From the IMG/VR virus record IMGVR_UViG_3300021964_009322, positions 1-39,542 of that record: a stretch of DNA of 39,542 bases. One strand, 5' to 3'. This document shows positions 1,026 through 21,403 of this stretch, one piece after another; position 1 is the stretch's first letter; each line of letters starts with the position of its first letter. The notes beneath the pieces are model-generated. The model was not told the DNA's origin. It did not search any database and saw only the letters and a program-made list of their open reading frames with translations. The translations under genes were made by a program, and so were the position numbers. Source of the DNA: a virus.

Positions 1026-4000
1026 TTAGTATGTACTCGATGTAATATTATAGTTATTCAAAATCTGAGTGGATGTTAACGCTGTGTTGTATAACCTTAT
1101 AACACCATATTCGCCTCTGAAATTACCTGTGTTGTCGGCGCCAGGATTCTCTTGACCGAAGAATATGTAATTATCTTGACCACTTGATTCATAAAAAATA
1201 CTTGTTTGAGAATCGTTCAATACCCCATCAACATATAGGCTTTGTGTTTGGTTTGTATTATTCCAAACCAATACCACTTGATACCACTGTCCTTGTACAA
1301 ACGGATTTGTTGAGTATAAGTAATTATTCTGCCATATCTTACCTCTGAATCTACCTGACTCAGCGGCTATTGGTGGCATATTCCACCCTGTCTGAGGATT
1401 TGCCTCTGACATTGACATAATATTACCATCAGAACTAGTTGGGTTAACCCATATTTCATAAGTAAATGATTGTGTTGCAGTACCCGTACCAGCAACTCTG
1501 CTAAGTAATATATAATCATCTATACCGTCAGTAACGATAGATTTGTTTGAGGAATTATATGTTGGACCATTAACTAAAGTACCATTGTAGTTACCTTGTA
1601 AATCTGTCCATACCGTACCAGTACCTGGGTATGAACTTGAATTACTCACATCTAAATTAACTAATAAATTAGTAGGGAACGGTGACGATGGTGATGGAGT
1701 TATACTACTTGTAGGTGTTGGAGACTTGGTTACTGATGGTGTTACTGAGATTGTCGGTGTGACTGTTGGTGTTGATGATGGTGTTACTGAATTAGTCGGT
1801 GTTAATGTAGGTGTAGCCGTTGGGGTTGGTGTAGGCGTTATACAATCATCCGCAAAATAACCTGAAACCCCACCGTGGTTATCTTGGAAAATGTTTCTCA
1901 TTGTTACAAAACTTGGTTTACTTAAAACTGGTGCGAAATAAGAATTAAATAAATTATAACCTAAAATATTATTTGTTTGAATACCCGATGGAGTTCTCAT
2001 ATTATCATTCCACTCAGGAGATAAAGAACCTCCCGCCCAAAACTCAGACATCTCCCACATACCCCAGTTAAGTAAATACATATACTCTTTATATGCTAAT
2101 TGAGCCTGTTCTGTATCACCTGACCAATTAGGTGCGTATTCACTAGGGTCAAACATACTATTGTCAATAGCTTGTTTCATAGCCAAATGTAAGTCAGTTG
2201 TTTGCCAATTCGGATTTTGTTCTGCCATCCAGTTTACCGCGGTTGACGAACCAGGAACCGCACCCATTATACCAAATAAGTGAACCGTATGGAAAATATG
2301 TTCAAACACTTCTTCAATCACAGTATCTCCACTTGTGGAACCACTATTGTACCATACCATGTCATTAGTTGCGTGAGTATCTAAGAATTCTTGGTATCCT
2401 GTATACCCTGTTATACCTTCATCGGTCAACCAATTAGGGTTATAGTCGTCTCCACTACCATAACCAACTCTTTGGGCTGTAGGTATTCCTTCATGTATTG
2501 TACCTACATCACCTCTTAAAGTGGCTACTAAATTATTTTGATATGACAAAGTAATCCCTGTTGCTGACGGGTCCATTATTAATTGGAACGAACGAGCCAC
2601 TTTTTTAGAGAATTCATCAGGTACCGCAACATTACCACCAACCGCACCGGCTATAACTTCTAATACACCACTAACATTTATACTTCTATCGAATACTGCA
2701 CCATTACTAGTATCGGCAGTTAAAGGTCCTGCGACATAACAACTAAGAAGAGCAGCGGCGGATGTTGTCGGTGTTGGTGTAGCCGTTTGAGTCGGAGTAA
2801 CCGAAGGTGTGATTGATGGGGTTAAACTATTAGTCGGTGTTGGAGTTGGAACAATACCTGTAGACATCACTAATAAATCGTCGTTATCTGTGACAATGTA
2901 ATTACCCAAATCATCAACCAATACATTATAAGTCACAGGACTTGATGTTGGTGTTAATGTTGGGGTCGGTGTCGGTGTTGAACTCAAATTAATCGGTGTG
3001 GCAGTAAAGTCAGGTGAAGGGGCTGGTGTATCTGTAGGTGTCTTAGTCGGTGTTAATGTAGGAGTTGTTGTTAAAGTATTGGTTGGAGTTATTGTTGGTG
3101 TAGGTGTTGGACTACCATCCGGAGTATTTGTCGGTGTAACTGTAGACGTTACTGTTTGAGTATTTGTTGGTGTAGATGTAGAAGTGACTGTTGTAGTTAC
3201 TGTAGGTGTCACACCTGGTGTTTGGGTCGGTGTTGAAGTTTGAGTTGGTGTTTGTGTTATTGTAACCGATGGTGTTAATGATGGGGTGACTGATGGAGTT
3301 ACCGATTGAGTAGGGGTATTTGTAGGACTTATAGTGTTTGTAATACTTGGAGTGACGGTTTGAGTAGGTGTTACCGCCTGTGTAGATGTTGGTGTGACAG
3401 TTTGAGTGTTTGTTGGAGTTACAGTATTTGTTGGAGTAACAGTCTGAGTATTTGTAGGAGTAATTGTCGCAGTTACTGTTGGTGTTACCGAAGCACCTGG
3501 CGTTTGTGATGGTGTTGGAGTATTTGTTTGAGTAGGTGTCTGAGTTATAGTTACACTTACCGTAGGCGTAATCGTCTGTGTGGGGGTAATAGTAACCGTT
3601 TGTGTCGGAGTGGCTGTTGGTGTTGAAGTTACACAAATCGCTTGTGATTGTGCAAGGGCATCTCCCGAACCGTTATCAACGATAGTAAATACATTACCAC
3701 CCGCAACCTCTCTAACATAGAACGTAGTCGCCGCCGTTGATAATAAAGTCTGCAATTCTGAAATTGTATACGGGTCTGTAGCAGCACTATCCTGATACAA
3801 TACCTGACCAACATTCAATCCGTTCTGACCGTAAATCACATCTTGAGGTACTGTTTCATAACAAACCGCATAACTATCAGTTGATATGAAGTAATAAGCT
3901 CCGTCAAGAGGGTTTGATAATGAAGGTGTTAATGTTGGAGTTACTGTCTGAGTCGTTGTCGGGGTAATTGTTACTGTTTGTGTAGGTGTTTGTGTATTTG

Positions 4001-5336
4001 TTGGGGTAAGTGTTACTGTCTGTGTTTGAGTTGGAGTATTAGTCGGTGTGGCCGTTACTGTCTGTGTAGGAGTATTAGTTGGTGTACTGGTTGGTGTGTT
4101 GGTTACTGTCTGTGTTTGTGTTGGACTATTTGTTGGTGTTATGGTCACTGTTTGCGTTGGGGTTATAGTAACAGTTTGAGTTGGAGTGTTGGTTACCGTC
4201 TGAGTTGGTGTAACCGTTTGTGTATTTGTCGGTGTAATCGTAGAAGTTATAGTCGGAGTTAATGTAACCGTTAACGTTGGGGTATTAGTTAAAGTTGGAG
4301 TTACCGTTTGTGTTGGTGTACTACTAACTGTCTGTGTCGGAGTTACAGTTGATGTCTGAGATACTGTCGGAGTGATTGTAGATGTGACTGTTTGAGTCAA
4401 CGTAGGAGTTACAGTATTCGTTGGTGTCACCGTTTGTGTAGGTGTCACTGTTTCAGTAATAGTTGGTGTCAATGTCTGAGTAGGAGTCACAGAACTTGTT
4501 ACACTAACTGACGGCGTCACCGTTTGTGTCGGGGTAGTGGTCGGTGTTTTTGTTAATGCTGGTGTTTTTGATACGGATGGAGTTACCGTCATTGTTGGTG
4601 TTACTGTAGGTGTTGGGGTCGGGGTTGGTGTAAATGGTGTATCAAAACTAAATTTAGGTTCAACAATGTAACGATAATTTGATGATACCGTTGGTGTATT
4701 TACATCTATGTCACGGTAGTAACTCTTACCTGAAACTAAGTTATAATTTACAGGTTTTTTAATTGTGAAAGTATTTGTCTTTTGACCCTTACCAATGATT
4801 AATAATACATCATTTTCCACCTCAGTACCATCCGTCAATAATAAAACATTCTTGAACGTTATCCTAACCTCAGTATCAACAGGGTAATTAGCAGTTGCCG
4901 TATATTCAGAAATGACCGAACCTTTGGTGTATGTTGCGGTAAGACTTATTTCGTTTGTCGTCTTATTTCTTCTACAACACATTTCAGAATCGGCAAACGA
5001 CTCGGCAATGGTAATGAAAATCTGACTTTCTAACGGTACCTTGTAAACACCTTCATTATTTGTGATAGTAAAGTATCCACTAAATCTACCTATTTTTTTT
5101 GTGAACTTTTTAGTGAATTGATATGAAACTATATAACCCGAACCATCACCTTTCTCTTTTACTGTGGCAGCTGAATTGGCAATTCTATAAATCCCCGTCT
5201 CAATATCATACATTGAAAAGGTTACTGTTGAGGCAGAAATAAGAGAATCAAGTTGGTTATACCCATTTCTTGATTCTTTTATTACTTCAACTTGAAGTTT
5301 AGGTAACGTACTATTTTTCTTTATATAAAATTCCAT
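1026..5336 (-). CDS. Giant mosaic adhesin/fibre: BppU-like N-terminus, Thr/Pro stalks, His-rich domain, LamG-like C-terminus (1436 aa)
   Basis: Several globular modules are strung on Thr/Pro-rich stalks. Residues 1-118 (MEFYIKKNSTLPKLQVEVIK...) resemble the N-terminal domain of BppU-type baseplate proteins, which attaches receptor-binding parts to the virion. Residues about 119-230 are a second beta-rich part with a Cys pair (120-121). Stalks cover about 235-470, 570-800, 826-860 and 1166-1218. Between them lie a small domain (471-569), a short insert (800-825) and a roughly 300-residue domain (861-1165) that includes a cluster EHIFHTVHLFG near residue 1012. Residues 1219-1436 have the pattern of a LamG/concanavalin-like lectin (DGIDDYILL, FTYEIWVNP, LYVDGVL, GVIRLYN). 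The gene begins 3 bases after the stop of the Cys-rich gene, so the two are probably co-transcribed. Role inferred: receptor-binding fibre. Domain edges are approximate. Confidence 0.75.
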   Translation of the reverse strand: MEFYIKKNSTLPKLQVEVIKESRNGYNQLDSLISASTVTFSMYDIETGIYRIANSAATVKEKGDGSGYIVSYQFTKKFTKKIGRFSGYFTITNNEGVYKVPLESQIFITIAESFADSEMCCRRNKTTNEISLTATYTKGSVISEYTATANYPVDTEVRITFKNVLLLTDGTEVENDVLLIIGKGQKTNTFTIKKPVNYNLVSGKSYYRDIDVNTPTVSSNYRYIVEPKFSFDTPFTPTPTPTPTVTPTMTVTPSVSKTPALTKTPTTTPTQTVTPSVSVTSSVTPTQTLTPTITETVTPTQTVTPTNTVTPTLTQTVTSTITPTVSQTSTVTPTQTVSSTPTQTVTPTLTNTPTLTVTLTPTITSTITPTNTQTVTPTQTVTNTPTQTVTITPTQTVTITPTNSPTQTQTVTNTPTSTPTNTPTQTVTATPTNTPTQTQTVTLTPTNTQTPTQTVTITPTTTQTVTPTLTPSLSNPLDGAYYFISTDSYAVCYETVPQDVIYGQNGLNVGQVLYQDSAATDPYTISELQTLLSTAATTFYVREVAGGNVFTIVDNGSGDALAQSQAICVTSTPTATPTQTVTITPTQTITPTVSVTITQTPTQTNTPTPSQTPGASVTPTVTATITPTNTQTVTPTNTVTPTNTQTVTPTSTQAVTPTQTVTPSITNTISPTNTPTQSVTPSVTPSLTPSVTITQTPTQTSTPTQTPGVTPTVTTTVTSTSTPTNTQTVTSTVTPTNTPDGSPTPTPTITPTNTLTTTPTLTPTKTPTDTPAPSPDFTATPINLSSTPTPTPTLTPTSSPVTYNVLVDDLGNYIVTDNDDLLVMSTGIVPTPTPTNSLTPSITPSVTPTQTATPTPTTSAAALLSCYVAGPLTADTSNGAVFDRSINVSGVLEVIAGAVGGNVAVPDEFSKKVARSFQLIMDPSATGITLSYQNNLVATLRGDVGTIHEGIPTAQRVGYGSGDDYNPNWLTDEGITGYTGYQEFLDTHATNDMVWYNSGSTSGDTVIEEVFEHIFHTVHLFGIMGAVPGSSTAVNWMAEQNPNWQTTDLHLAMKQAIDNSMFDPSEYAPNWSGDTEQAQLAYKEYMYLLNWGMWEMSEFWAGGSLSPEWNDNMRTPSGIQTNNILGYNLFNSYFAPVLSKPSFVTMRNIFQDNHGGVSGYFADDCITPTPTPTATPTLTPTNSVTPSSTPTVTPTISVTPSVTKSPTPTSSITPSPSSPFPTNLLVNLDVSNSSSYPGTGTVWTDLQGNYNGTLVNGPTYNSSNKSIVTDGIDDYILLSRVAGTGTATQSFTYEIWVNPTSSDGNIMSMSEANPQTGWNMPPIAAESGRFRGKIWQNNYLYSTNPFVQGQWYQVVLVWNNTNQTQSLYVDGVLNDSQTSIFYESSGQDNYIFFGQENPGADNTGNFRGEYGVIRLYNTALTSTQILNNYNITSSTY
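1680..1840 (-). repeat. Thr/Pro stalk 4 of the 1436-aa fibre protein
   Basis: A low-complexity coding tract of about 50 residues (TPTPTPTATPTLTPTNSVTP style). It separates the His-cluster domain from the C-terminal lectin-like domain. Confidence 0.8.
2755..2860 (-). repeat. Thr/Pro stalk 3 of the 1436-aa fibre protein
   Basis: A short low-complexity coding tract of about 35 residues before the 300-residue domain. It shows the same Thr at every second position as the longer stalks. Confidence 0.75.
2936..3629 (-). repeat. Thr/Pro stalk 2 of the 1436-aa fibre protein
   Basis: About 230 residues of Thr/Pro-rich sequence with recurring units such as TPTNTQTVTPT and PTQTVTP. Codons differ between units, so this is not a recent exact tandem duplication. 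Open frames on both strands inside this stretch (for example 3112-3636 and 3306-3509) come from the low-complexity composition. Confidence 0.85.
3926..4634 (-). repeat. Thr/Pro stalk 1 of the 1436-aa fibre protein
   Basis: About 235 residues in which nearly every second residue is Thr and Pro recurs every few residues (units such as TPTQTVT, TNTPTQTVTIT). It is the longest stalk and follows the N-terminal virion-attachment part. Such chains are expected to be extended and rich in potential O-glycosylation sites. Confidence 0.85.
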
Positions 5337-9900: not shown

Positions 9901-11115
9901 ATGTCAAAGATAAAAGTATTAGTACTACCCTCTGATAGAACAGGGGTGGGTAAATTCCGTTCTGTAGAACCTCACATTTTCTTACAACAATCTTTTCCTG
10001 AAGATTTCCACGTAGATATAGATTATGAACCAAAAGTTAATGACCTTAACTATTGGAAACAATATGATATGGTTTGTTACCACAGGTCTATCGGGAAAGA
10101 CCCTGTTGCTTCGGTTCAAATAGTTCAGATGTTAAACCAAATGGGTATCGTAACGGTAATGGATTTAGATGACTATTGGTTACCAACAAAGGAACACCCA
10201 GCACATAATCTTGTTGTTAAAAATGAATTACATAAAAAGATTATAGACAACTTGAGAGTTGCACAATATGTGACAACCACCACTACTATTTTTGCTGAAG
10301 AGATTAAGAAAATCAATAAGAATATTTTTATCTTACCAAACGCGATTAACCCAAAAGAACCTCAGTTTATGGCTGAGACAAAACCATCGGACAAATTAAG
10401 ATTCGGATGGTTGGGTGGTTCATCTCACTTACACGACTTAAAAATTCTTAAAGATGCTTTTGGAAAATTAAATTCACAAAAAGACAACTTCAATGTTTAT
10501 TTATGTGGATTTGATACTCGTGGAACAATTACTGAGATTAACCCTCAGACGGGGGAACAAAAACAAAGACCTATTCAACCTCACGAAACAGTATGGGCAC
10601 AATATGAACAAATATTTACCAATAACTACAATTTGGTAACTCCTGAACATAAGGAATTCCTAACAAAATATGTTCAAGAACCATATACCTTAGAAGAAAA
10701 TCCATTCTATACTCGTGTGTGGACAGAACCTGTAACATCATACGCTAAGAATTATGCGAACTTTGATGTGTCATTAGCACCACTTAAAAATCATATCTTT
10801 AACCGAGTAAAATCTCAGTTGAAAGTGATTGAGGCTGGTTTTTACAAGAAGGCACTTATTGCCTCTAACATTGGTCCGTATACTATCGACTTGAAACATT
10901 CACTTCAAAATGGTAACTTTGTTGATGGTAACGCACTATTAGTCGAGGAAAGAAGAAATCACTCTGATTGGGCAAAGTGGATGAAGAAACTTATTGACAA
11001 CCCATCATGGGCTGAGGATTTGGGTGAAAGACTTTATGAGACGGTATCAAAGACATATGACTTAAATATAGTAACAGAAACAAGAGCACAAATTTATAAG
11101 GAGATTGCAAAATGA
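9901..11115 (+). CDS. Glycosyltransferase, GT4-like (GT-B fold) (404 aa)
   Basis: The N-terminus (KIKVLVLPSDRTGVGKFRSVEPH) has the early glycine and Arg region of a GT-B glycosyltransferase. It is followed by VTVMDLDDYW (residues 79-88) and, at the domain boundary, IFILPNAINPKEPQF. The second domain has LRFGWLGGSSHLHDLKIL and ends with KSQLKVIEAGFYKKALIASNIGPY, the usual E-x(n)-A donor-binding region of GT4 enzymes. Donor and acceptor are unknown. Similar enzymes with the same FGWLGGSSH motif occur in marine T4-like phages beside structural genes, as far as I recall. It overlaps the next gene by 4 bases (ATGA). This start of the glycan region may be expressed from sequence in 9846-9900. Confidence 0.75.
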   Translation: MSKIKVLVLPSDRTGVGKFRSVEPHIFLQQSFPEDFHVDIDYEPKVNDLNYWKQYDMVCYHRSIGKDPVASVQIVQMLNQMGIVTVMDLDDYWLPTKEHPAHNLVVKNELHKKIIDNLRVAQYVTTTTTIFAEEIKKINKNIFILPNAINPKEPQFMAETKPSDKLRFGWLGGSSHLHDLKILKDAFGKLNSQKDNFNVYLCGFDTRGTITEINPQTGEQKQRPIQPHETVWAQYEQIFTNNYNLVTPEHKEFLTKYVQEPYTLEENPFYTRVWTEPVTSYAKNYANFDVSLAPLKNHIFNRVKSQLKVIEAGFYKKALIASNIGPYTIDLKHSLQNGNFVDGNALLVEERRNHSDWAKWMKKLIDNPSWAEDLGERLYETVSKTYDLNIVTETRAQIYKEIAK

Positions 11116-12411: not shown

Positions 12412-14055
12412 ATGTTAACAATAGGATACAGTACAAAAAAGATAGACCCTGAATTTAGAGAATATATTGAGAAATCATGTGGGTTGAAAGGTGTTGAAGT
12501 AATACCTTTTGAAAACCCTGGTACCCATTCCCTTACAGAAGTATATAATATCATTCTTGAGCAATCAACGAATGATATTGTCGTGCTTTGTCACGACGAC
12601 ATTTATTTTGAAAAAAGGAATTGGGGTAATAAGTTATTGAAACATTTTAAGCGAAATCCTGAATATGGAATCTTAGGTGTTGCAGGTTCAACCAAATTAC
12701 CATCATCTGCAAAGTGGTGGGAAGACCCCACTCGTATGAGAGGTATAGTAAACCACGAACACGAAGGTAAAAAGTGGGAGTCAAAATACTCACCGAGCTT
12801 GGGTAATAACATTGACCCAGTGGTATTGGTTGACGGATTGTTTATGGTATTAGACAAAACTAAAATCAAACAAACCTTTGGTGAAGAGATTGAAGGGTTT
12901 CACCTTTATGATGTAGACTTTTGTGTTAAGAACTTTGTTGAAGAGGTGAACATCGGGGTTATCTATGATATCAGAATTACTCACAAATCTATCGGTCAGA
13001 CCAACCAACAATGGGAAGACAACCGAGAGAAGTTCGCACAAAGACACAGTGACAAATTACCATTAAGAATTGTTCCTAACTTAGACATCAACTCACCCAT
13101 TAAAGTATTACTTTCTTGTTTGTTCTTTAAGAACTACACAGGGTCAGAAATGTACGTTTATGAGTTAGCTAAAGAATTAGTTAAACTTAATTGTGATGTC
13201 ACGGTATTGTCAGACACTAATGGACCACTATCAAAACAAGCCAAAAGTTATGGAATCAAATCCATATCATTACCTGAATATCCAGGTTTTAAAGTTGGTG
13301 ATGGTCGTTGGGGTTTCAACACTCCTAATGGTTTCCAACCTTCACAACCAAATATGTTGTATAAGGTGGGTAACGCTGATTTTGATATCATCCATACACA
13401 ACACAAACCCATCACAGAAAAGATGGTGGAATTATACCCAAACATCCCAAAACTCGCAACCATTCATTCTGAGGTCATCAGTTTGGAAGACCCAATAATC
13501 AACGACACAATTCGTGAGTATATAGCAATCCGACCTGAAATTAAGGATAAAATGGTGAATGTTGATGGTGTTGACGAATCAAAGATTTCTGTGGTATACA
13601 ACCCAATTGACTCTTCTCGATTCAACACTGAAAAGACTAAAGACGATGGATATATCTTATTTGTTGGTACGATTGATTACTTAAGAGAACAATCCATTCG
13701 TGACATTGCAAACTACGCAAAAGAACAAGGTAAAGAATTATGGTTGGTCGGACATAATAGTTCTAACTACCTACCTGAGTTATTAACTCAATCACACATT
13801 AAACATTTTGAGGCAACCAATCAGGTTGAAAAATATGTTAAGAACTGTAGTGAGACTGCAGGTATCCTATTAGGTCGTACCACTATTGAGGGTTGGATGT
13901 GTGGAAAACCTGGTTGGATTTATAATGTGGATGAGGTGGGGAATATTAAAAGTAAAGAAAGGTTTGACATTCCTTCAGATATAGATAAGTTTAATTCTAA
14001 GGAAGTTGCAAAAATAATTAAACAATTATACATTAAAATATTAAAAGAATGGTAG
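12412..14055 (+). CDS. Fused glycosyltransferase: GT-A (GT2-like) N-terminus plus GT-B (GT4-like) C-terminus (547 aa)
   Basis: Residues 1-220 follow the GT2_5-type pattern: LTIGYSTKKIDPEFREYIE, then IVVLCHDDIYF with the acidic DD pair (62-63), then VVLVDGLFMVLDK and GFHLYDVDFC. Residues 222-547 form a second enzyme: IKVLLSCLFFKNYTGSEMYV, then VYNPIDSSRF at the interdomain hinge, then GYILFVGTIDYLREQSI and GRTTIEGWMCGKPGW. The chain is therefore a two-domain transferase that may add two sugars in sequence or work on one product. Donors and acceptor are unknown. The next gene's ATG overlaps its stop (ATGGTAG), suggesting translational coupling. Confidence 0.75.
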   Translation: MLTIGYSTKKIDPEFREYIEKSCGLKGVEVIPFENPGTHSLTEVYNIILEQSTNDIVVLCHDDIYFEKRNWGNKLLKHFKRNPEYGILGVAGSTKLPSSAKWWEDPTRMRGIVNHEHEGKKWESKYSPSLGNNIDPVVLVDGLFMVLDKTKIKQTFGEEIEGFHLYDVDFCVKNFVEEVNIGVIYDIRITHKSIGQTNQQWEDNREKFAQRHSDKLPLRIVPNLDINSPIKVLLSCLFFKNYTGSEMYVYELAKELVKLNCDVTVLSDTNGPLSKQAKSYGIKSISLPEYPGFKVGDGRWGFNTPNGFQPSQPNMLYKVGNADFDIIHTQHKPITEKMVELYPNIPKLATIHSEVISLEDPIINDTIREYIAIRPEIKDKMVNVDGVDESKISVVYNPIDSSRFNTEKTKDDGYILFVGTIDYLREQSIRDIANYAKEQGKELWLVGHNSSNYLPELLTQSHIKHFEATNQVEKYVKNCSETAGILLGRTTIEGWMCGKPGWIYNVDEVGNIKSKERFDIPSDIDKFNSKEVAKIIKQLYIKILKEW

Positions 14056-14786
14056 ATAGAATTACCCAGTGGATTAAAAATTACGCCGAAGAAAACAGAA
14101 TTAGTTCATTAGTTGTCGGTGTTTCAGGTGGAATTGATTCGGCCTTAGTATCAACACTTTGTGCAAGAACTGGTATTCCGACACTATGTGTTTTAATGCC
14201 AATACATCAAGACCCATCACACACTGAAAGAGGATTAAATCACGTTAAGTGGTTACAGAAAGACCACTACTTAGTGGGATTACATGAATTTGATTTAACT
14301 GAGGTTTATGACAAATTTGTAGAAATAATGGATTATACCAAATCTGATTTGGGTTTTGCTAACTCTCGTTCTCGTCTTCGCATGATTACCCTTTATCAAT
14401 TGGCCACATCCACTAATGGTATTGTCGTTGGTACGGGTAATAAAGTAGAAGATTTCGGTGTTGGTTTCTACACAAAATATGGTGATGGCGGTGTGGATAT
14501 CTCACCAATTGCTGACCTTACAAAAACTGAGGTTTACGAGTTGGCTCGTGAGTTAGGTATCAATCAAGAAATTTTAGATGCTCAACCGACCGATGGTTTA
14601 TGGGGTGATAATAGAAACGATGAAGACCAAATTGGTGCAACATACCCCGAACTTGAATGGGCGATGGAATATGAAGGTGATGGTTCTGATTTAAATAATA
14701 GACAACAACTGGTTTTAGACATCTACTTAAGCTTCCACAATAAAAATAAACATAAAATGAATCCGATTCCGGTGTTTAAAAAATGA
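14049..14786 (+). CDS. nadE: NH3-dependent NAD+ synthetase (245 aa)
   Basis: The ATP-pyrophosphatase loop GVSGGIDSALV is at residues 24-34. The family segments SRSRLRM, GTGNKVEDFGVGFYTKYGDGG, SPIADLTKTEVYELAREL and AQPTDGLW are all clear. The enzyme converts deamido-NAD (NaAD) to NAD+ using ATP and ammonia. Length matches the single-domain ammonia-dependent form without a glutaminase domain. It is unusual that it sits alone, without other NAD genes, inside the glycan gene string. It directly precedes a UDP-sugar dehydrogenase that consumes NAD+ (ATGA overlap). A second possibility is that it restores NAD+ depleted by host defence systems. Both are inference. It is very unlikely to be anything else. 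Confidence 0.9.
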   Translation: MVDRITQWIKNYAEENRISSLVVGVSGGIDSALVSTLCARTGIPTLCVLMPIHQDPSHTERGLNHVKWLQKDHYLVGLHEFDLTEVYDKFVEIMDYTKSDLGFANSRSRLRMITLYQLATSTNGIVVGTGNKVEDFGVGFYTKYGDGGVDISPIADLTKTEVYELARELGINQEILDAQPTDGLWGDNRNDEDQIGATYPELEWAMEYEGDGSDLNNRQQLVLDIYLSFHNKNKHKMNPIPVFKK

Positions 14787-15946
14787 AAAGATTAGGAGTA
14801 ATTGGTGTTGGAAAGTTAGGGTTATCTTTCGCACTATTAGCAGAACATACAGGTTATGAAGTTATTGGTTCAGACATATCTAAAGATTATGTTGACCAAT
14901 TAAATAACAAAACATTAAAAAGTAATGAACCATTCATTGAAGAATATTTACAATCATCTACAAAATTTACGGCAACAACAGATAATATTGATGTGATTCA
15001 AAATTGTGATATTATTTTTACTTTTGTACCGACACCATCATTACCAACAGGAGAATACAATCACGAATATGTTGAAGAAGTTATCGACGCATTTGAAGCA
15101 TTACATTACACAGGTAATGATTTAACAGGTAAATTATTTGTGATTGGCTGTACAACCAACCCAGGGTACACAGACACTGTAACAGAAAGACTTCAGCCGA
15201 TGGGTATGGAAGTTTGTTATAACCCTGAATTTATAGCTCAAGGTGATATTATAAATGGTTTAAAATACGCAGATATGATTCTTATTGGCACATCATCAAA
15301 AACTGAGGTTAGAAGAATTAAAGAGGTTTACTACACTTTTATGGTTGACGAACCAAAATTTAATATCATGTCTAATACTGCCGCCGAGATTACTAAGATT
15401 TCAATCAACTGTTACCTCACCACAAAAATTTCATTTGCTAATATGATTGGTGAAATTTGTAATAATAGTGGTATTGGTGATGAAATCTCTACTGTCTTAT
15501 CTGCAATTGGTGATGACACCCGAGTTGGTAAAAAATATTTAAACTACGGATTTGGTTTTGGTGGTCCTTGTCTACCGAGAGACAACAGAGCACTTGGGGT
15601 ACATGCGGAAAAAGTTGGTTTGGAACTTAACTTACCATTAGCAATCGACCAATTCAATATTGAGCACCACAAATATTTGGTAAATAAATTTGTTATGGAA
15701 AACCCTGACCGTAACACAACTTTTGTGTTTAACTCAGTAACCTACAAAAAAGGAACAGACATATTAACAGAATCTCAACAGTTAAATCTTTTACTTTCAT
15801 TATTGGCCGAAGGATATAGTTGTGTTGTAATTGATATTGATGAAGTTATTGAAAAACTTGAGGGTCCTTTAACAAACACATACGGAGATAAAATTAAATT
15901 TCAACTAATTGGAACAATTGCAGAAGGAGTAAAAATTATTATTTAA
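14783..15946 (+). CDS. UDP-sugar dehydrogenase (UDP-glucose / UDP-ManNAc dehydrogenase family) (387 aa)
   Basis: The N-terminal Rossmann motif is GVIGVGKLG (residues 5-13). The family segments FVPTPSLPTG, NPEFIAQGD and EITKISINC (K205 being the usual active-site Lys) and the catalytic Cys in FGFGGPCLPRD (C263) are all present. These enzymes oxidise the C6 alcohol of a UDP-sugar to a uronic acid in two NAD+-dependent steps. The next gene is a UDP-GlcNAc 2-epimerase, so a WecC-type UDP-ManNAc dehydrogenase is a reasonable guess, giving UDP-ManNAcA. UDP-glucose dehydrogenase cannot be excluded from motifs alone. It overlaps nadE by 4 bases. Confidence 0.85.
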   Translation: MKRLGVIGVGKLGLSFALLAEHTGYEVIGSDISKDYVDQLNNKTLKSNEPFIEEYLQSSTKFTATTDNIDVIQNCDIIFTFVPTPSLPTGEYNHEYVEEVIDAFEALHYTGNDLTGKLFVIGCTTNPGYTDTVTERLQPMGMEVCYNPEFIAQGDIINGLKYADMILIGTSSKTEVRRIKEVYYTFMVDEPKFNIMSNTAAEITKISINCYLTTKISFANMIGEICNNSGIGDEISTVLSAIGDDTRVGKKYLNYGFGFGGPCLPRDNRALGVHAEKVGLELNLPLAIDQFNIEHHKYLVNKFVMENPDRNTTFVFNSVTYKKGTDILTESQQLNLLLSLLAEGYSCVVIDIDEVIEKLEGPLTNTYGDKIKFQLIGTIAEGVKIII

Positions 15947-15950
15947 AATT

Positions 15951-16934
15951 ATGATTTTATATTGTTACGGAACTAGACCAGAATACATTAAAGTAAAAAA
16001 ATTAATCTCACTATCTAAAGATTTACCACATAAAGTTCTTTACACAGAACAACATAAAGATTTAGTACTTGGTGATTTTGATTACAAATTAACTATTGGA
16101 GATGGTAGTAATAGATTAGATTCTATAATTTCATCAATATTATCAAATAATCTTGATGAGTGTTTTTTAGGTGTAAAATATGTCTTAGTACAAGGTGACA
16201 CTGCATCTGCATTTGCATTATCATTGGCAGCATTTCACAGAAATATTAAAGTAATACATTTAGAAGCAGGTCTAAGAACATATGATAAAGAAAATCCATA
16301 CCCTGAAGAATCATATAGACAATTCATTAGTAGAATAACAGATATTCATTTGTGTCCTACAGAAAATAATAAAAATAATCTATTAATGGAAAAAGTGGGT
16401 GGTGAAATTTATGTCGTTGGTAATACTGTTTTGGACAACTTAGAAAAAGGTAATACAGAATATGGTAATAATGTATTAGTAACTTTACACAGAAGAGAAA
16501 ACCACGAAGAAATGGATAAGTGGTTTTATGAAGTTGAGAATCTATCTATAAAACATCCCGAATTAAATTTTATCTTACCAATCCATCCTAACCCAAATGT
16601 AAAAAAACATCAACATATTTTAAAAAATGTAATCGTTGTAGACCCACTATCTCATGATGAATTCATTAGTGAAATGAAAAAATGTAGATTATTGATATCT
16701 GACAGCGGTGGAGTCCAAGAAGAGGCGTCATTTTTTAATAAAAGAGTAATAGTTTGTCGTAAAGTAACAGAAAGAACGGAATCTATAGGTACCCATTCAT
16801 TTTTATGTGATAAACCAAGTAGTTTAAATTCATTATTTGAAGAATTAGTTTATGATTATGAAATAAACAAACCATGTCCATATGGTGATGGTAATTCATC
16901 TGAAAAAATTATAGAAATATTAAAAAAGTTATGA
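15951..16934 (+). CDS. wecB: UDP-N-acetylglucosamine 2-epimerase (327 aa)
   Basis: The N-terminal CYGTRPEYIK (residues 5-14), then VQGDTASAFA (80-89), HLEAGLRTYD (103-112), NPYPEE (115-120), VTLHRREN (177-184) and SDSGGVQEEA near residue 248 are the usual signature of non-hydrolysing UDP-GlcNAc 2-epimerases. The enzyme interconverts UDP-GlcNAc and UDP-ManNAc by elimination and re-addition of UDP. It is shorter than typical bacterial WecB (about 370-380 residues) but the active-site elements are kept. With the dehydrogenase before it, the pair could make UDP-ManNAcA. From here to about 20318 the DNA looks more AT-rich than the genes on either side, suggesting later acquisition. Confidence 0.85.
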   Translation: MILYCYGTRPEYIKVKKLISLSKDLPHKVLYTEQHKDLVLGDFDYKLTIGDGSNRLDSIISSILSNNLDECFLGVKYVLVQGDTASAFALSLAAFHRNIKVIHLEAGLRTYDKENPYPEESYRQFISRITDIHLCPTENNKNNLLMEKVGGEIYVVGNTVLDNLEKGNTEYGNNVLVTLHRRENHEEMDKWFYEVENLSIKHPELNFILPIHPNPNVKKHQHILKNVIVVDPLSHDEFISEMKKCRLLISDSGGVQEEASFFNKRVIVCRKVTERTESIGTHSFLCDKPSSLNSLFEELVYDYEINKPCPYGDGNSSEKIIEILKKL

Positions 16935-17659
16935 GTGTTACAGTAGTATTAAACGGTTACAAACGAAGTGCATATTTTAAAGACCAATTAGATGCAATAA
17001 AACGTCAAACAGTTGTCCCAACAGAGATTTTATTGTGGCAAAACGCTGGAGAAGAATTTAATCCCGAATTAACTAAAGATACTGTACACGCATCGTGCAA
17101 TAAAAATTTAGGAGTATGGGCTCGTTTTGCATTTGCATTAAACGCAAAAACAGAATATGTTTGTGTTTTTGATGATGATACAATACCAGGTAATCGATGG
17201 TTAGAAAATTGTTTGGAAACAATAAAAACACACGATGGTTTGTTAGGAACAATCGGTGTTAGATTTAATACAGAACAAGGTTATTCCCCCCATAGTAGGG
17301 TTGGATGGGCAAATCCAAATGAGAAAACAGAAGAGGTAGATATTGTTGGACATGCATGGTTTTTTAGAAGAGAGTGGTTATCCACATTTTGGAGAGAGTT
17401 GCCAGATATGAATCATTCTCCTTTAGTTGGAGAGGACATGCATTTTTCATATACGTTACAAAAGTATCTTAATAAGAAGACATTCGTACCGCCTCACCCC
17501 AAAGATGATTTATCATTATGGGGAAGTTTCCCAATGACTGCATGGCAAATAGGTCAAGACAAAGCGGCCATTTCAATGAATATGAATAATTTAAGTATCA
17601 TGTCAAATGCCTATGTCTCTTACATAAATAAAGGGTTTAAAATAATGAGTAAAAAATGA
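16931..17659 (+). CDS. Glycosyltransferase family 2-like (GT-A fold) (242 aa)
   Basis: It has the GT2 start VTVVLNGYKRSAYFKDQLDA and IKRQTVVPTEILLWQN, then the nucleotide- and metal-binding acidic triple FDDDTIPG (D81-D83), which closes the first half. The second half contains EVDIVGHAWFFRREWL and VGEDMHFSYTLQKYL, where the ED pair is probably the catalytic base region. Metal-dependent transfer from a nucleotide sugar is expected, with donor and acceptor unknown. No membrane segment is present, so it is a soluble or peripheral enzyme. It overlaps both neighbours by 4 bases (ATGA). Confidence 0.8.
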   Translation: MSVTVVLNGYKRSAYFKDQLDAIKRQTVVPTEILLWQNAGEEFNPELTKDTVHASCNKNLGVWARFAFALNAKTEYVCVFDDDTIPGNRWLENCLETIKTHDGLLGTIGVRFNTEQGYSPHSRVGWANPNEKTEEVDIVGHAWFFRREWLSTFWRELPDMNHSPLVGEDMHFSYTLQKYLNKKTFVPPHPKDDLSLWGSFPMTAWQIGQDKAAISMNMNNLSIMSNAYVSYINKGFKIMSKK

Positions 17660-18441
17660 AAACTTTTGAATCACATTTTAACTTATTAAGAGATAAACTA
17701 TTAAACAATGAACATTTCGCATTTGCTAGATTCTCAGATGGTGAATTGTTTATTCTACAAAATAAAAGATTAGAACTTAATGAAAATCACTACATCATTG
17801 GGAACCAAAGAGGGGGTGGAATGTATAATAAAGAGGAACAAAAAAAATTCTTACCTGAAGTACATTCTGAAAATAGACAGATGTTAGTTGATTCATTACA
17901 ACATAAACAAAAAAATTATTATAAAGGAATTTCATGTAGATGTTGTGTAAGTCATTCAGATTTTAATTTTCAAATAGAAATGGCGGGTGGAGACGATGAT
18001 TATCTCACATGGTCTAATCTTTTTATTAATGGAAACTACGAAAGATATTTAAACGAAATTTTTCCATTATTTAAAACAAAAAAAGTAATAATGGTTGTGA
18101 ATGAAAATGCTGACCTATCTGATTTAGGATTTAATATCGTTAAAGATTTTAGAGTAGGAACCAATTGTTTTATTAATGATGTTAATATTGTTGATTCGAT
18201 TAAACACTACATATCTGAAAATAATATTGAAGACCATATTGTGTTAGTGTCTGCCGCTAGTTTATCAAACATTATTATTCATAAATTATTTAAAGAATAC
18301 CCAAATAACACTTATTTTGATATTGGTAGTACTCTAAATCCAATTATGAAAATGGAAGGTTGGAAAGGCAGTAGGGTGTACTTAAGAGAACGATGGTTAG
18401 GACAGGGTAGAAACTATCTTAATAAAGTGTGCATATGGTAG
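17656..18441 (+). CDS. GT-D fold glycosyltransferase-like protein (DUF1792-like) (261 aa)
   Basis: The segment FAFARFSDGELFIL (residues 22-35) corresponds to the FxRFGDGE motif of GT-D glycosyltransferases, first described in streptococcal serine-rich-repeat protein glycosylation. Later parts (KKVIMVVNENADLSD, DHIVLVSAASLSNIII, YFDIGSTLNPIM) fit the alternating strands of this fold and its C-terminal DxGS region. The founding family adds a sugar to a glycoprotein stalk rich in Ser, which is interesting beside Thr-rich phage fibres, but no direct link can be shown. The next gene starts inside its end (ATGGTAG). Confidence 0.7.
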   Translation: MKTFESHFNLLRDKLLNNEHFAFARFSDGELFILQNKRLELNENHYIIGNQRGGGMYNKEEQKKFLPEVHSENRQMLVDSLQHKQKNYYKGISCRCCVSHSDFNFQIEMAGGDDDYLTWSNLFINGNYERYLNEIFPLFKTKKVIMVVNENADLSDLGFNIVKDFRVGTNCFINDVNIVDSIKHYISENNIEDHIVLVSAASLSNIIIHKLFKEYPNNTYFDIGSTLNPIMKMEGWKGSRVYLRERWLGQGRNYLNKVCIW

Positions 18442-18839
18442 ATTTAAAAATGATATCAAATTCTCCCGAATATTATGAATTTATTCGTGAATTAAGAACG
18501 GACCCAAAAAATATTGGTGGTTTTGTTGAACAAGTTAGTATTACAACTGAGCAACAAAAAAAATATATGGAAAAATATTCAGAGTGCTACCAAATTTGTT
18601 TATTAAATGATGAACCAGTTGGTTTTATAGGTGTGGTGGATAAGGACATTAGATTCGCAGTAAAACCAAATCATCACGGCCAAGGAATTGGAAAATTTAT
18701 GATGAAAGAATTAATTAAAACCAATAGTGATGTATTAGCAAAAGTTATGATTAATAACGTTGCTAGTTCAAAAGTGTTTGAGTCGTGTAATTTCAAACTA
18801 TACAAAAAGGATGAACAATTTTTATACTATAAATTATGA
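18435..18839 (+). CDS. GNAT family N-acetyltransferase (134 aa)
   Basis: I chose the ATG at 18435, which overlaps the preceding stop (ATGGTAG), rather than the GTG at 18429. The acetyl-CoA binding segment is PNHHGQGIGKFMMKELI, matching the Q/RxxGxG/A motif. Before it come PVGFIGVVDKDIRFAVK, the central strands, and after it VASSKVFESCNFKLYKKD, the typical end of the fold. It probably acetylates an amino sugar produced by the next gene's aminotransferase, as in WecD/VioB-like steps. That assignment rests on adjacency only. Confidence 0.8.
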   Translation: MVDLKMISNSPEYYEFIRELRTDPKNIGGFVEQVSITTEQQKKYMEKYSECYQICLLNDEPVGFIGVVDKDIRFAVKPNHHGQGIGKFMMKELIKTNSDVLAKVMINNVASSKVFESCNFKLYKKDEQFLYYKL

Positions 18840-19474
18840 ACTTAAGAAAACCAAAAACCAATCCTTATAAAATAGTTAAGGATTTTGAAGATGAAGTAGC
18901 CGATTATACAGGTTCAAAATATGCAGTATCTGTCGATAGTTGCACAAACGCCCTGTTTTTAATTTGTAAGTACCTCGAAGTTACTCAGGTAACGATACCA
19001 TCAAAAACTTATTTATCCGTTCCACAATCAATTATACATTCAGGAGGGGAAGTAATTTTTGATAAATCAGAAGAAACAAATAATTGGAAAGGAATCTATC
19101 AATTAAAACCATACCCAATTTATGACGCTGCTAAAAGATTCACATCAAATATGTATATCCCAAACACATATATGGCTTTATCTTTTCACATCAAAAAACA
19201 TTTAAAAATAGGAAAAGGTGGAATGATTTTAACTGACAATGAAGATGCCGTTAAATGGTTCAAACAAGCCAGATATGAAGGACGTAATGAAGTGTTGTAT
19301 CACGAAGATGATATAAAAATGTTAGGGTGGAATATGTATATGACCCCACAACAAGCGTCTCATGGTTTATCCCTAATGCAAAATTATCCTTTAAATGTTC
19401 CAGATTTAGATGAAAACAATGGTTATCGAGATTTAACTGAGTTTACGGTTTTTAAAAACTGTAAAGTAAAATAA
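18836..19474 (+). CDS. Short DegT/DnrJ/EryC1-type sugar aminotransferase, lacks C-terminal domain (212 aa)
   Basis: This matches the PLP-binding large domain of nucleotide-sugar aminotransferases: YTGSKYAVSVDSCTNALFL (residues 24-42), then YDAAKRF (96-102, cofactor-binding Asp), then SFHIKKHLKIGKGG, in which K121 is at the position of the PLP Lys, and LGWNMYMTPQQASHGL (163-178). Full-length members have about 360-400 residues. Here the protein stops after the large domain and lacks the small C-terminal domain of roughly 150 residues. It may be a minimal active form, work with another subunit, or be a truncated relic. The frame is intact and spacing to the next gene is short (13 bases), so it is not obviously decaying. 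Confidence 0.75.
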   Translation: MNLRKPKTNPYKIVKDFEDEVADYTGSKYAVSVDSCTNALFLICKYLEVTQVTIPSKTYLSVPQSIIHSGGEVIFDKSEETNNWKGIYQLKPYPIYDAAKRFTSNMYIPNTYMALSFHIKKHLKIGKGGMILTDNEDAVKWFKQARYEGRNEVLYHEDDIKMLGWNMYMTPQQASHGLSLMQNYPLNVPDLDENNGYRDLTEFTVFKNCKVK

Positions 19475-19487
19475 GTCTTAAAATATT

Positions 19488-20318
19488 ATGATAACTTTTT
19501 CACAATTAGGTTCATATGGAAGATTAGGCAATCAAATATTTCAATATGCCTTGTTAAAATCTGTTAACATTAAAACGGGCTATGATATTGTTTTACCACA
19601 CAATTTATACAATAGAACGCACCATGGACAAAAATGTTTATTAAACAATTTTAAATTACCATCCTGTAATTACGGTAAGATTTCATTTGAACATATGTTT
19701 ACTGAAAAACAAAACAGATTATACGATGAAGAAGTTTATACCATAAAAGATAATACTAATTTTAGTGGGTTTTTTCAAAACCCAAATTATTATACAAACA
19801 TAAGGGAAGAGTTAATCAATGAATTTGAAATGATTGACCCAATACAAGAAAAAATTAATAATTATCTAAATTCTAAAGGTACAACCGTATCATTACACGT
19901 TAGGCGTGGTGACATTAGTGATGGTACAAATCCCATTGATACTTCATGGTCTAATGACTTTTCTATTGGTTCGGTCCAATATGAATATTATAAAAAATCA
20001 ATCGATTCTATACCTGAAAATAGTACAATATTACTATTTACTGGTGGGTCACGAAAAAACACCACAGATGATGATATTAAATGGTGTAAAGAACACTTCA
20101 AAGATGAAAGAATAGTTTTTGTTGATGGATTTAATGATATTGAAACTTTTGGTTTAATGAAATCGTGTGATTATAATATAACATCATTTGCATCAACATT
20201 TTCTTGGTGGGCATCGTTTTTAAATAAAAATAATAATGTAATTGCCCCTAAAAAATACTACCCTTCGGAAAATATTGAACCATCAACTATCTATCCTAAA
20301 AATTGGAAATTATTATGA
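19488..20318 (+). CDS. Glycosyltransferase family 11 (alpha-1,2-fucosyltransferase-like) (276 aa)
   Basis: GT11 motifs are clear: GRLGNQIFQYA near the N-terminus (residues 11-21), VSLHVRRGD (134-142), which binds the GDP-sugar, and FASTFSWWASFL near the C-terminus. These inverting enzymes normally transfer L-fucose from GDP-L-fucose to the 2-OH of galactose. No GDP-fucose synthesis genes (GMD, FCL) are in the window. The following gene makes GDP-L-galactose instead, which suggests an alternative donor. It overlaps the next gene by 4 bases (ATGA). Confidence 0.85.
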   Translation: MITFSQLGSYGRLGNQIFQYALLKSVNIKTGYDIVLPHNLYNRTHHGQKCLLNNFKLPSCNYGKISFEHMFTEKQNRLYDEEVYTIKDNTNFSGFFQNPNYYTNIREELINEFEMIDPIQEKINNYLNSKGTTVSLHVRRGDISDGTNPIDTSWSNDFSIGSVQYEYYKKSIDSIPENSTILLFTGGSRKNTTDDDIKWCKEHFKDERIVFVDGFNDIETFGLMKSCDYNITSFASTFSWWASFLNKNNNVIAPKKYYPSENIEPSTIYPKNWKLL

Positions 20319-21403
20319 AAAATATAGTAGTACTTGGAGGTGGAGGATTTATTGGAGGCCACCTATCTAAAAGACTAAAAGATGAAGGTAACAATGTTAC
20401 CATTTGTGATATTAAAACACATGAATATTGGCCATTACATGAAATATGTCATGAATTTATTATTGGAGATTTAAGAGACCCTAACGTGGTTTCTAAAGTC
20501 ATTAAAGAAGGAACTGACGAAGTATATCAATTAGCTGCGGATATGGGTGGTGCTGGTTATATCTTTACAGGAGATAACGACGCTAACGTAATGCACAATT
20601 CAGCACTAATCAATTTGAATGTGGTTCACGAGTGTGTGAAGAAAGGCGTGAGTAAAGTATTTTATTCATCATCGGCATGTATGTACCCCGAACACAATCA
20701 GTTAGACCCTGACAACCCTAACTGTGAGGAATCATCAGCATATCCTGCAAATCCTGACTCTGAGTATGGTTGGGAAAAACTATTCTCTGAGAGGTTGTTT
20801 TTAGCATTTAATCGTAACTACGGATTGGATGTAAGAATCGCTCGTTTCCACAACATTTTTGGACCTATGGGTACATGGACGGGTGGAAAGGAAAAGGCAC
20901 CTGCTGCGATGTGTAGAAAGGTCGCCGAAGGTGAAACCGAGATTGAAGTATGGGGTGATGGACAACAAACACGTTCGTTCCTATATGTTGATGAATGTGT
21001 AGAAGCAGTATTAAAACTAATGGAGTCCGACTTCTTAGGACCTGTTAATATTGGTTCAGAAGAGATGGTCACCATCAATGAGCTTGCACAGATGTCTATT
21101 GATATCTCAGGAAAAGATATTAAGATTAAGAATATAGGAGGACAAGATTTCATTGACAAATATGGGTTCAGTTGTCCCGTGGGTGTTAGAGGAAGAAACT
21201 CCGATAATAAACTTTATAAAGAAAAAGTTGGTTGGGAAGTATCCCAACCCTTAAGAGTAGGTATGGAAAAGACGTATAATTGGATTAATGAACAAGTAGA
21301 AAAAAGTGATAAAACTTATATCTATGAAAGCCCTGATAAGGGAAAAACCGTGTACAGAAGAGAATTTGGTGCAGACCACAACACAAGAGAACTTGTTAAA
21401 TAA
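20315..21403 (+). CDS. GDP-mannose 3,5-epimerase-like NDP-sugar epimerase (362 aa)
   Basis: I chose the ATG at 20315, overlapping the previous stop. The NAD+ site is GGGGFIGGHL (residues 8-17). It has SSSACMYPE (118-125, with C122 at the position of the catalytic Cys of plant GME), Y151/K155 of the YxxxK dyad, RFHNIFGPMGTWTGG (177-191), EKAPAAMCRK and GVRGRNSDN. The segments between follow plant GDP-mannose 3,5-epimerase closely. The reaction converts GDP-D-mannose to GDP-L-galactose (and GDP-L-gulose). The C-terminal extension of about 35 residues is unusual. In plants the product feeds vitamin C and cell-wall synthesis; here it probably feeds a glycosyltransferase. Confidence 0.85.
   Translation: MKNIVVLGGGGFIGGHLSKRLKDEGNNVTICDIKTHEYWPLHEICHEFIIGDLRDPNVVSKVIKEGTDEVYQLAADMGGAGYIFTGDNDANVMHNSALINLNVVHECVKKGVSKVFYSSSACMYPEHNQLDPDNPNCEESSAYPANPDSEYGWEKLFSERLFLAFNRNYGLDVRIARFHNIFGPMGTWTGGKEKAPAAMCRKVAEGETEIEVWGDGQQTRSFLYVDECVEAVLKLMESDFLGPVNIGSEEMVTINELAQMSIDISGKDIKIKNIGGQDFIDKYGFSCPVGVRGRNSDNKLYKEKVGWEVSQPLRVGMEKTYNWINEQVEKSDKTYIYESPDKGKTVYRREFGADHNTRELVK

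Follow-up and report, generated by a model that had tools for sequence, protein, structure and literature searches.

Why does a phage carry a single gene for NAD+ synthesis within a set of genes for glycan synthesis? This question is raised by the IMG/VR virus record IMGVR_UViG_3300021964_009322, a virus fragment of 39,542 bases that was analyzed over its whole length (the window); the rest of the phage was beyond reach. The window is a fragment of a T4-like phage, with a T4-type, gp23-like major capsid gene at 33860–35638 (PF07068, E 5.1e-73), and holds a glycan island on one strand between 9.9 and 21.4 kb. This island contains nadE (14049–14786, plus strand), predicted to encode an ammonia-dependent NAD+ synthetase of 245 amino acids (aa), followed directly by a gene for a UDP-sugar 6-dehydrogenase (UGD; 14783–15946, plus strand, 387 aa). 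A first-pass annotation had described a full NadE without partner NAD genes, directly coupled to an NAD+-using dehydrogenase, and had suggested that it supplies cofactor during infection or counters defences that destroy NAD+. We found that NadE and UGD form a strongly conserved, recurrent phage module and are no quirk of the window; the many phages with this pair come for the most part from water. With moderate confidence, we read NadE as an active NAD synthetase that makes up half of this recurrent module in a phage surface-glycan island and is coupled to UDP-sugar oxidation.

NadE and the overlapping UGD gene

The window NadE matched PF02540 (NAD_synthase) with an E value of 2.3e-47 (161.6 bits, cut-off 21), TIGR00552 (nadE) with 170.9 bits, above the curated cut-off of 63.65, and PHROG 11189 "NAD synthetase" with an E value of 1.7e-79. 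It scored 167.1 bits with the narrow NAD+ synthase equivalog NF010587 of NCBIfam (PRK13980), below the cut-off of 255, and by these profile scores it is filed under the broader TIGR00552 and not under NF010587. The PP-loop motif VSGGIDS was present at residues 25–31, with SGGxDS aligning with solved NadEs, and the protein consists of a single synthetase fold lacking a glutaminase domain. An AlphaFold model based on 25 alignment rows had a mean predicted local distance difference test score (pLDDT) of 88.3, and its residues 1–239 matched solved chains of the NadE family. The top fold matches were tied, with a best Z of 30.0 for the nicotinamide mononucleotide (NMN) synthetase of Francisella (3fiu) and a Z of 29.3 for NadE of Helicobacter pylori. 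Because of the strong family match and the agreement of the model with NadE chains, the assignment is not due to chance: by family and predicted fold, the open reading frame (ORF) encodes a full ammonia-dependent NAD synthetase. The product appears to be an ordinary, intact protein and is probably active. It shares the fold, the PP-loop motif, the conserved active-site columns and the single-domain length with the NadE proteins of H. pylori and Bacillus subtilis. Unlike these, it is phage-borne, has no NAD partner that we could find, is encoded by a gene that overlaps the UGD gene, and has one extra residue in the stretch EDFGVGF, which in our alignments is common to relatives from Flavobacteriia and marine archaea.

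The upstream glycosyltransferase gene extends to 14055 and thus covers the first bases of nadE. At its other end, nadE overlaps the UGD gene by 4 bp (ATGA), with the nadE stop codon TGA at 14784–14786 and the UGD start codon ATG at 14783. UGD was identified by PF03721 (E 1.6e-25), PF00984 (E 4.4e-23) and PHROG 9148. The next gene (15951–16934, plus strand) encodes a putative UDP-N-acetylglucosamine 2-epimerase of 327 aa (PF02350, E 3.7e-67), and the presence of both UGD and the 2-epimerase suggests a route of the UDP-N-acetylmannosaminuronic acid (UDP-ManNAcA) type. In the proposed mechanism, NadE would use ATP to adenylate the carboxylate of nicotinic acid adenine dinucleotide (NaAD) made by the host, and ammonia would displace AMP from the adenylated NaAD to give NAD+. 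UGD would spend two NAD+ to oxidize a UDP-sugar to a UDP-uronate, which the nearby glycosyltransferases would build into a glycan. The UGD substrate is probably UDP-N-acetylmannosamine or a similar sugar, because the 2-epimerase gene comes next. Selection could have favored the pairing because UGD, alone among the island enzymes, is known to reduce large amounts of NAD+.

The window record had one place matching PF02540, and no gene of the nicotinate phosphoribosyltransferase (NAPRT)/Nampt type (PF04095) was found in its 39.5 kb, where other NAD families were not searched. Likewise, PF04095 was absent from all six complete phage genomes with a NadE–UGD pair. Each of the six had one NadE above cut-off, and S-SCSM2R had a second, sub-threshold place. 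As far as these searches reach, NadE is thus a full and lone NAD gene, as the first-pass annotation had stated. PF01467 matches occurred at 17 places in 10 of 13 records of relatives. Five of the 17 places were read; they carry cytidyltransferase or heptose-phosphate adenyltransferase annotations and were discarded as candidates for NadD or NadM. In P-TIM68 (NC_028955), a 144-aa product at 152334–152768 is annotated as NAD synthetase (gp170) and had no NAD_synthase match, the only place being in gp179; the label of gp170 is probably a mis-annotation.

Recurrence of the NadE–UGD pair in phages

The surroundings of NadE were followed in three samples: viral contigs seeded with NadE, contigs seeded with UGD, and, as a control, islands seeded with the nucleotide-sugar epimerase of the window (20303–21403). 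Lists of the best 80 matches lean towards close relatives of the query, and the search for NAPRT in the neighborhood of NadE used only three query sequences. The NadE-seeded viral contigs held 148 distinct NadEs, 99 of them flanked on each side by five or more ORFs (full context). UGD lay within six ORFs of NadE in 78 of the 99 full-context cases and NAPRT in 4; 17 had neither and none had both. When the set was thinned to less than 70% identity, 30 of 46 had UGD, 4 had NAPRT and 12 had neither. Counting cut contexts as well, there were 107 linked cases; the UGD gene shared the strand of nadE in every one of them and was its immediate downstream neighbor in 73. Together with the 4-bp overlap, this recurrence bears out the direct coupling described by the first-pass annotation. 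On whole contigs with NadE, UGD was found above cut-off in 37 of 50 and a NAPRT gene in 5 of 50, two of which had both (L056 and L064).

The UGD-seeded contigs had NadE within six ORFs in 71 of 80 cases, a count biased by the use of a profile built from UGDs chosen for lying near NadE; in one of the nine exceptions, L213, the contig carries NadE at another place. NadE was present in 12 of the 80 epimerase-seeded islands, and all 12 also had UGD, which occurred in 17 of the 68 islands without NadE (Fisher p 9e-7). For the 54 control loci of at least 19 kb, the association with NadE had a p value of 7e-6 for UGD, 0.01 for glycosyltransferase family 11 (GT11) and at least 0.18 for nine other island families. 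These p values treat related contigs as independent, and the control loci are not fully so: the 12 NadE loci represent 10 NadEs at less than 80% identity. Of the 17 loci scored as UGD only, at least 2 (L380, L389) sit on contigs that carry NadE beyond the stretch (the same contigs as L040 and L034). Of the 51 loci scored as having neither gene, at least 3 (L376, L377, L387) sit on contigs where both genes lie beyond it (the same contigs as L019, L020 and L077).

The 15 nearest phage records had NadEs 49–57% identical to that of the window, and in all records with at least 49% identity (15/15, GenBank/RefSeq duplicates included) UGD adjoined with at most one gene between. None of the 30 phage records with NadE of at most 36% identity was among the 37 records matching the window UGD. 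The PHROG 11189 phages HTVC008M, S-SSM7, P-TIM68, Bellamy, S-SCSM2R and Sf-FS3 carry nadE (49–56% identical to that of the window) beside UGD. It is directly upstream of UGD in five of the six and one gene apart in Bellamy, where a methyltransferase lies between. Phage nadE is thus already known and annotated in public genomes, and the annotations of these records make no remark on the pairing. Papers are cited here by PMC number, and what we take from them refers to the parts of their text that were accessible. In a study of snow viruses, both nadE and UDP-glucose 6-dehydrogenase appear in a list of abundant viral genes, and the accessible text draws no link between them (PMC11097641). No published description of a NadE–UGD module was found in the literature searched, which covered few subscription journals.

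The UGD partners of 64 pairs (thinned to less than 75% NadE identity) fell into two subfamilies of 13 and 51 members with about 28% mutual identity. The gene orders varied, and NadEs were up to 71% identical across the two groups. NadE and UGD identities were correlated (Mantel r 0.43, a value reached in 0 of 2000 permutations), and part of the linkage is therefore joint inheritance.

Three UGD-linked NadE ORFs carried extra sequence. In L072, a domain resembling glycosyltransferase family 2 (GT2) precedes NadE (PF00535, E 5.3e-5; PHROG 14945, E 2.8e-32). In L069/L267, which are one contig, NadE follows an island protein of about 330 aa that has no firm family and whose counterparts in L016 and L059, encoded separately, are 47–48% identical to it. 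NadE of L248 has a C-terminal extension without a Pfam match. These fusions hint at a role of NadE in the glycan pathway; since ORFs were called mechanically, they could also be chance fusions or stem from single-base assembly errors.

Active site, relatives and possible roles of NadE

We selected 31 positions for their conservation in an alignment with cellular homologs, so that agreement is partly by choice. They were unchanged in all 107 UGD-linked phage NadEs, bar one N-terminally partial row, and include R111, T129, E134, F140, K143, D150, K159, H235 and K236. The 41 phage NadEs without UGD agreed except at P51 (40), T181 (39) and W185 (40). The 79 cellular homologs (L105 was dropped from the 80 since no NadE ORF was called) also agreed with few exceptions, the largest at W185 (72/79). 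UGD-linked and other NadEs differed as groups at positions such as 46–49 and 117–118 and at none of the 31. Which residues count as NaAD ligands is taken from general knowledge of NadE, except for the aromatic residue that stacks on the nicotinate. The C-terminal His of NadE is presumably H235, as judged by alignment without superposition. The stacking aromatic of human NadE is Tyr525 (PMC6946656). It corresponds to F140 by our own alignment, again without superposition, and F140 was kept in all 107 and all 41 sequences. As far as the alignment can tell, the active site of the UGD-linked NadEs gives no sign of a new substrate.

The closest cellular relatives (best 80 of 589) were 52–62% identical and came mostly from Flavobacteriia, also from marine Thermoplasmatota. 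In Flavobacteriia, neighbors of about 111 and 320 aa recurred, which we take to be gldC and gldB. No UGD was found in the fetched stretch of any of the 79 cellular NadE loci, and one further cellular copy that was opened (G189) had neighbors that look like housekeeping genes by eye. All 22 cellular genomes checked (of 80 loci), many of them draft or metagenome-assembled, had only one full-length NAD synthase, other PF02540 matches there being partial. In Bacteroidota, 52 of 395 genomes, including the seed genome, had a match at E 1e-60. In Pseudomonadota, 3 of 299 had one at E 1e-40, among them the seed genome and a genome with a weak match of 159 bits. Each had one copy, and no second NadE was seen in these 55 genomes, whose phyla are named from the record titles of the seeds.

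The NadE tree was built by a quick method without bootstrap and has a weak backbone, with 15 of 80 inner branches starred. The UGD-linked NadE of L022 was sister to the single full-length NadE of a TMED198 assembly (L092; SH-aLRT 98, starred), which is flanked by genes resembling, by eye, those for asparaginyl-tRNA synthetase and DNA polymerase I. The UGD label needed nine changes, at least three of them forced by starred branches, against a mean of 24.2 after shuffling; the label is still clustered. UGD-linked NadEs sat among NAPRT-linked and cellular ones. A dedicated clade of glycan NadEs was not seen on this tree, though the nine label changes may be losses. Retained NAD synthase activity is favored because the conserved positions are kept, the cellular relatives are single-copy, and L022 is sister to the TMED198 NadE.

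Several points weigh against a supply of NAD+ to UDP-sugar oxidation. NaAD is normally scarce, and without a gene supplying it, NadE alone would lift NAD+ only little; no such gene was found beside NadE. UGD reduces NAD+ without destroying it, so that there is no evident reason for a dedicated synthase. UGD occurred without NadE in the fetched stretch of 9 of 80 UGD-seeded loci and 17 of 29 control islands with UGD (both upper bounds), and NadE is therefore not required for UGD. The three fused NadEs are not predicted by cofactor supply. The earlier suggestion that NadE supplies cofactor during infection remains plausible and compatible with the data; NadE converts NaAD only, and no NaAD-supplying gene was found at its side.

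Two answers fit NadE beside UGD, supply of NAD+ or amidation of the UGD product. Supply suits the conserved residues, a phylogeny in which the groups are intermixed and the absence of any UGD-linked copy from the cellular loci, while amidation suits the asymmetric pairing, the fusions and the missing NaAD-supplying gene. In the amidation alternative, NadE would convert the sugar acid made by UGD (CH2OH to COOH to CONH2), and a rare amidated sugar would decorate the glycan; we regard this as possible but doubtful. A fuller version, an NAD synthetase recruited as sugar-acid amidase that turns UDP-uronate into UDP-uronamide within a portable NadE–UGD module, and that maybe keeps both activities, is tentative and rather doubtful. 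The chemistry is suggestive, since the NadE mechanism turns carboxylates into amides and UGD yields a carboxylate; NaAD and UDP-uronates both carry a carboxylate on a ring linked to a nucleotide diphosphate, and the NadE site might take both. The asymmetry of the control islands, with NadE only where UGD is present (12/12) and UGD also alone, is expected of a step after UGD. The pairing with two distant UGD subfamilies in varied gene orders, the absence of NAPRT within six ORFs of the 78 UGD-linked full-context NadEs, and the fusions to a GT2-like domain, an island protein and an extension also fit. Uronamide sugars are real: WbpS acts in Porphyromonas gingivalis and Helicobacter pullorum (PMC7468200, PMC6025236), and the WbpO/WbpS and WbpA/WbpS pathways combine a UDP-sugar dehydrogenase with amidation as this reading requires. 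However, the known enzymes, WbpS included, are AsnB-like and unlike NadE (PMC7468200), all conserved NadE positions are kept, among them those taken to be NaAD ligands, the UGD-linked NadEs form no single clade, and no second NadE copy was seen in the 55 cellular genomes with a match. The window NadE had no match to PF00733 (Asn_synthase) at E 0.001, which does not exclude WbpS-like action. Replacement of NadE by a WbpS-like enzyme was considered and rejected: PF00733 matched at E 0.001 in 5 of 50 UGD contigs, four of the matches falling below cut-off and in NadE itself, and the one above cut-off (G044, locus L043) was on a contig with both NadE and UGD. No AsnB-like gene above cut-off was found in 22 UGD contigs chosen as lacking a nearby NadE, three of which hold NadE further off.

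NadE could also be a general NAD+ booster or anti-defence gene in a cargo region that happens to hold UGD as well, the adjacency being incidental, which we think unlikely. Phage NAD genes have been proposed as metabolic or counter-defence genes (PMC11097641, PMC13384950), and for phage X1, whose genome has several NAD genes, nadE was suggested to help against NAD depletion (PMC13384950). NAPRT without UGD near NadE in 4 of 99 cases, the five NAPRT-bearing contigs (L056 and L064 with a UGD-family gene as well), the gene order pncB–Nudix–small ORF–nadE in L060, and the joint inheritance indicated by the Mantel test are in line with this. On the other hand, NadE of the control islands goes with UGD more than with ten other island families, and no PF04095 gene accompanies the pair in complete phages (0/6). 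NadE is not known to accept ADP-ribose or nicotinamide, which arise when NAD+ is cleaved, or to recycle them. The NARP1 system also concerns NAD+ in phage infection; it reconstitutes NAD+ by Adps together with Namat, an enzyme that has a Nampt-like core, and so differs from NadE in enzymes and substrates (PMC12774641). A Namat-type (PF04095) gene, the sole partner type sought, was found neither in the window nor in the six complete phages; Adps was not searched. NadE lay near UGD much more frequently than near NAPRT (78 against 4 of 99). The earlier suggestion that it counters NAD+-destroying defences found no support and survives only within this low-confidence alternative. We regard as very unlikely that NadE is an NMN synthetase variant that amidates nicotinic acid mononucleotide (NaMN) to NMN. 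Among solved structures, the Francisella enzyme, an NMN synthetase with only marginal NAD synthetase activity (PMC3376133), matches it best in both sequence and fold, but the fold score is tied with that of the H. pylori NAD synthetase, and the cellular relatives checked are sole NAD synthases by copy number, though copy number cannot tell NaAD from NaMN. Our preferred reading remains an active NAD synthetase that is coupled to the oxidation of a UDP-sugar. In phages, nadE is usually filed as an auxiliary gene of NAD metabolism, and here its placement tracks one sugar enzyme. This points either to a genuine local demand for NAD+ during phage glycan synthesis or to the borrowing of a universal cofactor enzyme for sugar chemistry, and either outcome would alter how such auxiliary metabolic genes are read.

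Further genes of the island and of related loci

The other island genes are all on the plus strand. Upstream of nadE lie genes for a glycosyltransferase of 404 aa (9901–11115, PHROG 7162) and a two-domain glycosyltransferase of 547 aa (12412–14055, PF13712 and PF13439). The 2-epimerase gene is followed by genes for a GT2 enzyme of 242 aa (16931–17659, PF00535), a protein of 261 aa without Pfam or PHROG match (17656–18441), a GNAT acetyltransferase of 136 aa (18429–18839, PF00583), a DegT/StrS-type sugar aminotransferase homolog of 212 aa (18836–19474, PF01041, matched as two stretches), a GT11 enzyme of 276 aa (19488–20318, PF01531) and the NAD-dependent nucleotide-sugar epimerase of the short-chain dehydrogenase/reductase type (366 aa, 20303–21403, PF01370).

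In other phages of this NadE family, a nicotinate phosphoribosyltransferase-type gene was seen in L060 (3888–6765, and in L061), L047 and the contigs of L064 and L056; the gene set of L060 is likely an NAD salvage operon without UGD. In ten loci without UGD within six ORFs (L026, L027, L029, L032, L036, L052, L062, L068, L074 and L076), NadE directly follows a QueE-like gene, another carboxylate maker beside NadE. These upstream genes form one cluster, for which PHROG 2076 was tested on L052; QueE models stayed below cut-off on L052 and L027. QueC was considered in these phages and discarded: of 21 contigs, 3 gave a weak PF06508 match, always inside the NadE match, and in the 17 contigs of the QueE-like group it was likewise found only inside NadE.

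In the UGD-seeded set, the window UGD is closest to two consecutive UGD-like genes found in L174 (4824–6817) and again in L175 (5144–7119), with products of 276/272 and 388/386 aa. The family search covered L174 only, and the fetched stretches of both loci lacked NadE. A methyltransferase gene adjoined or lay near UGD in islands without nearby NadE (L213, L235, L239, L241 and L243; PHROG 22502 in L241, the others by eye), and such methyltransferases may modify the same sugar. In the window itself, the minus strand holds an ORF of 1436 aa (1026–5336) with long Thr/Pro-rich repeats, perhaps a virion surface or fibre protein.

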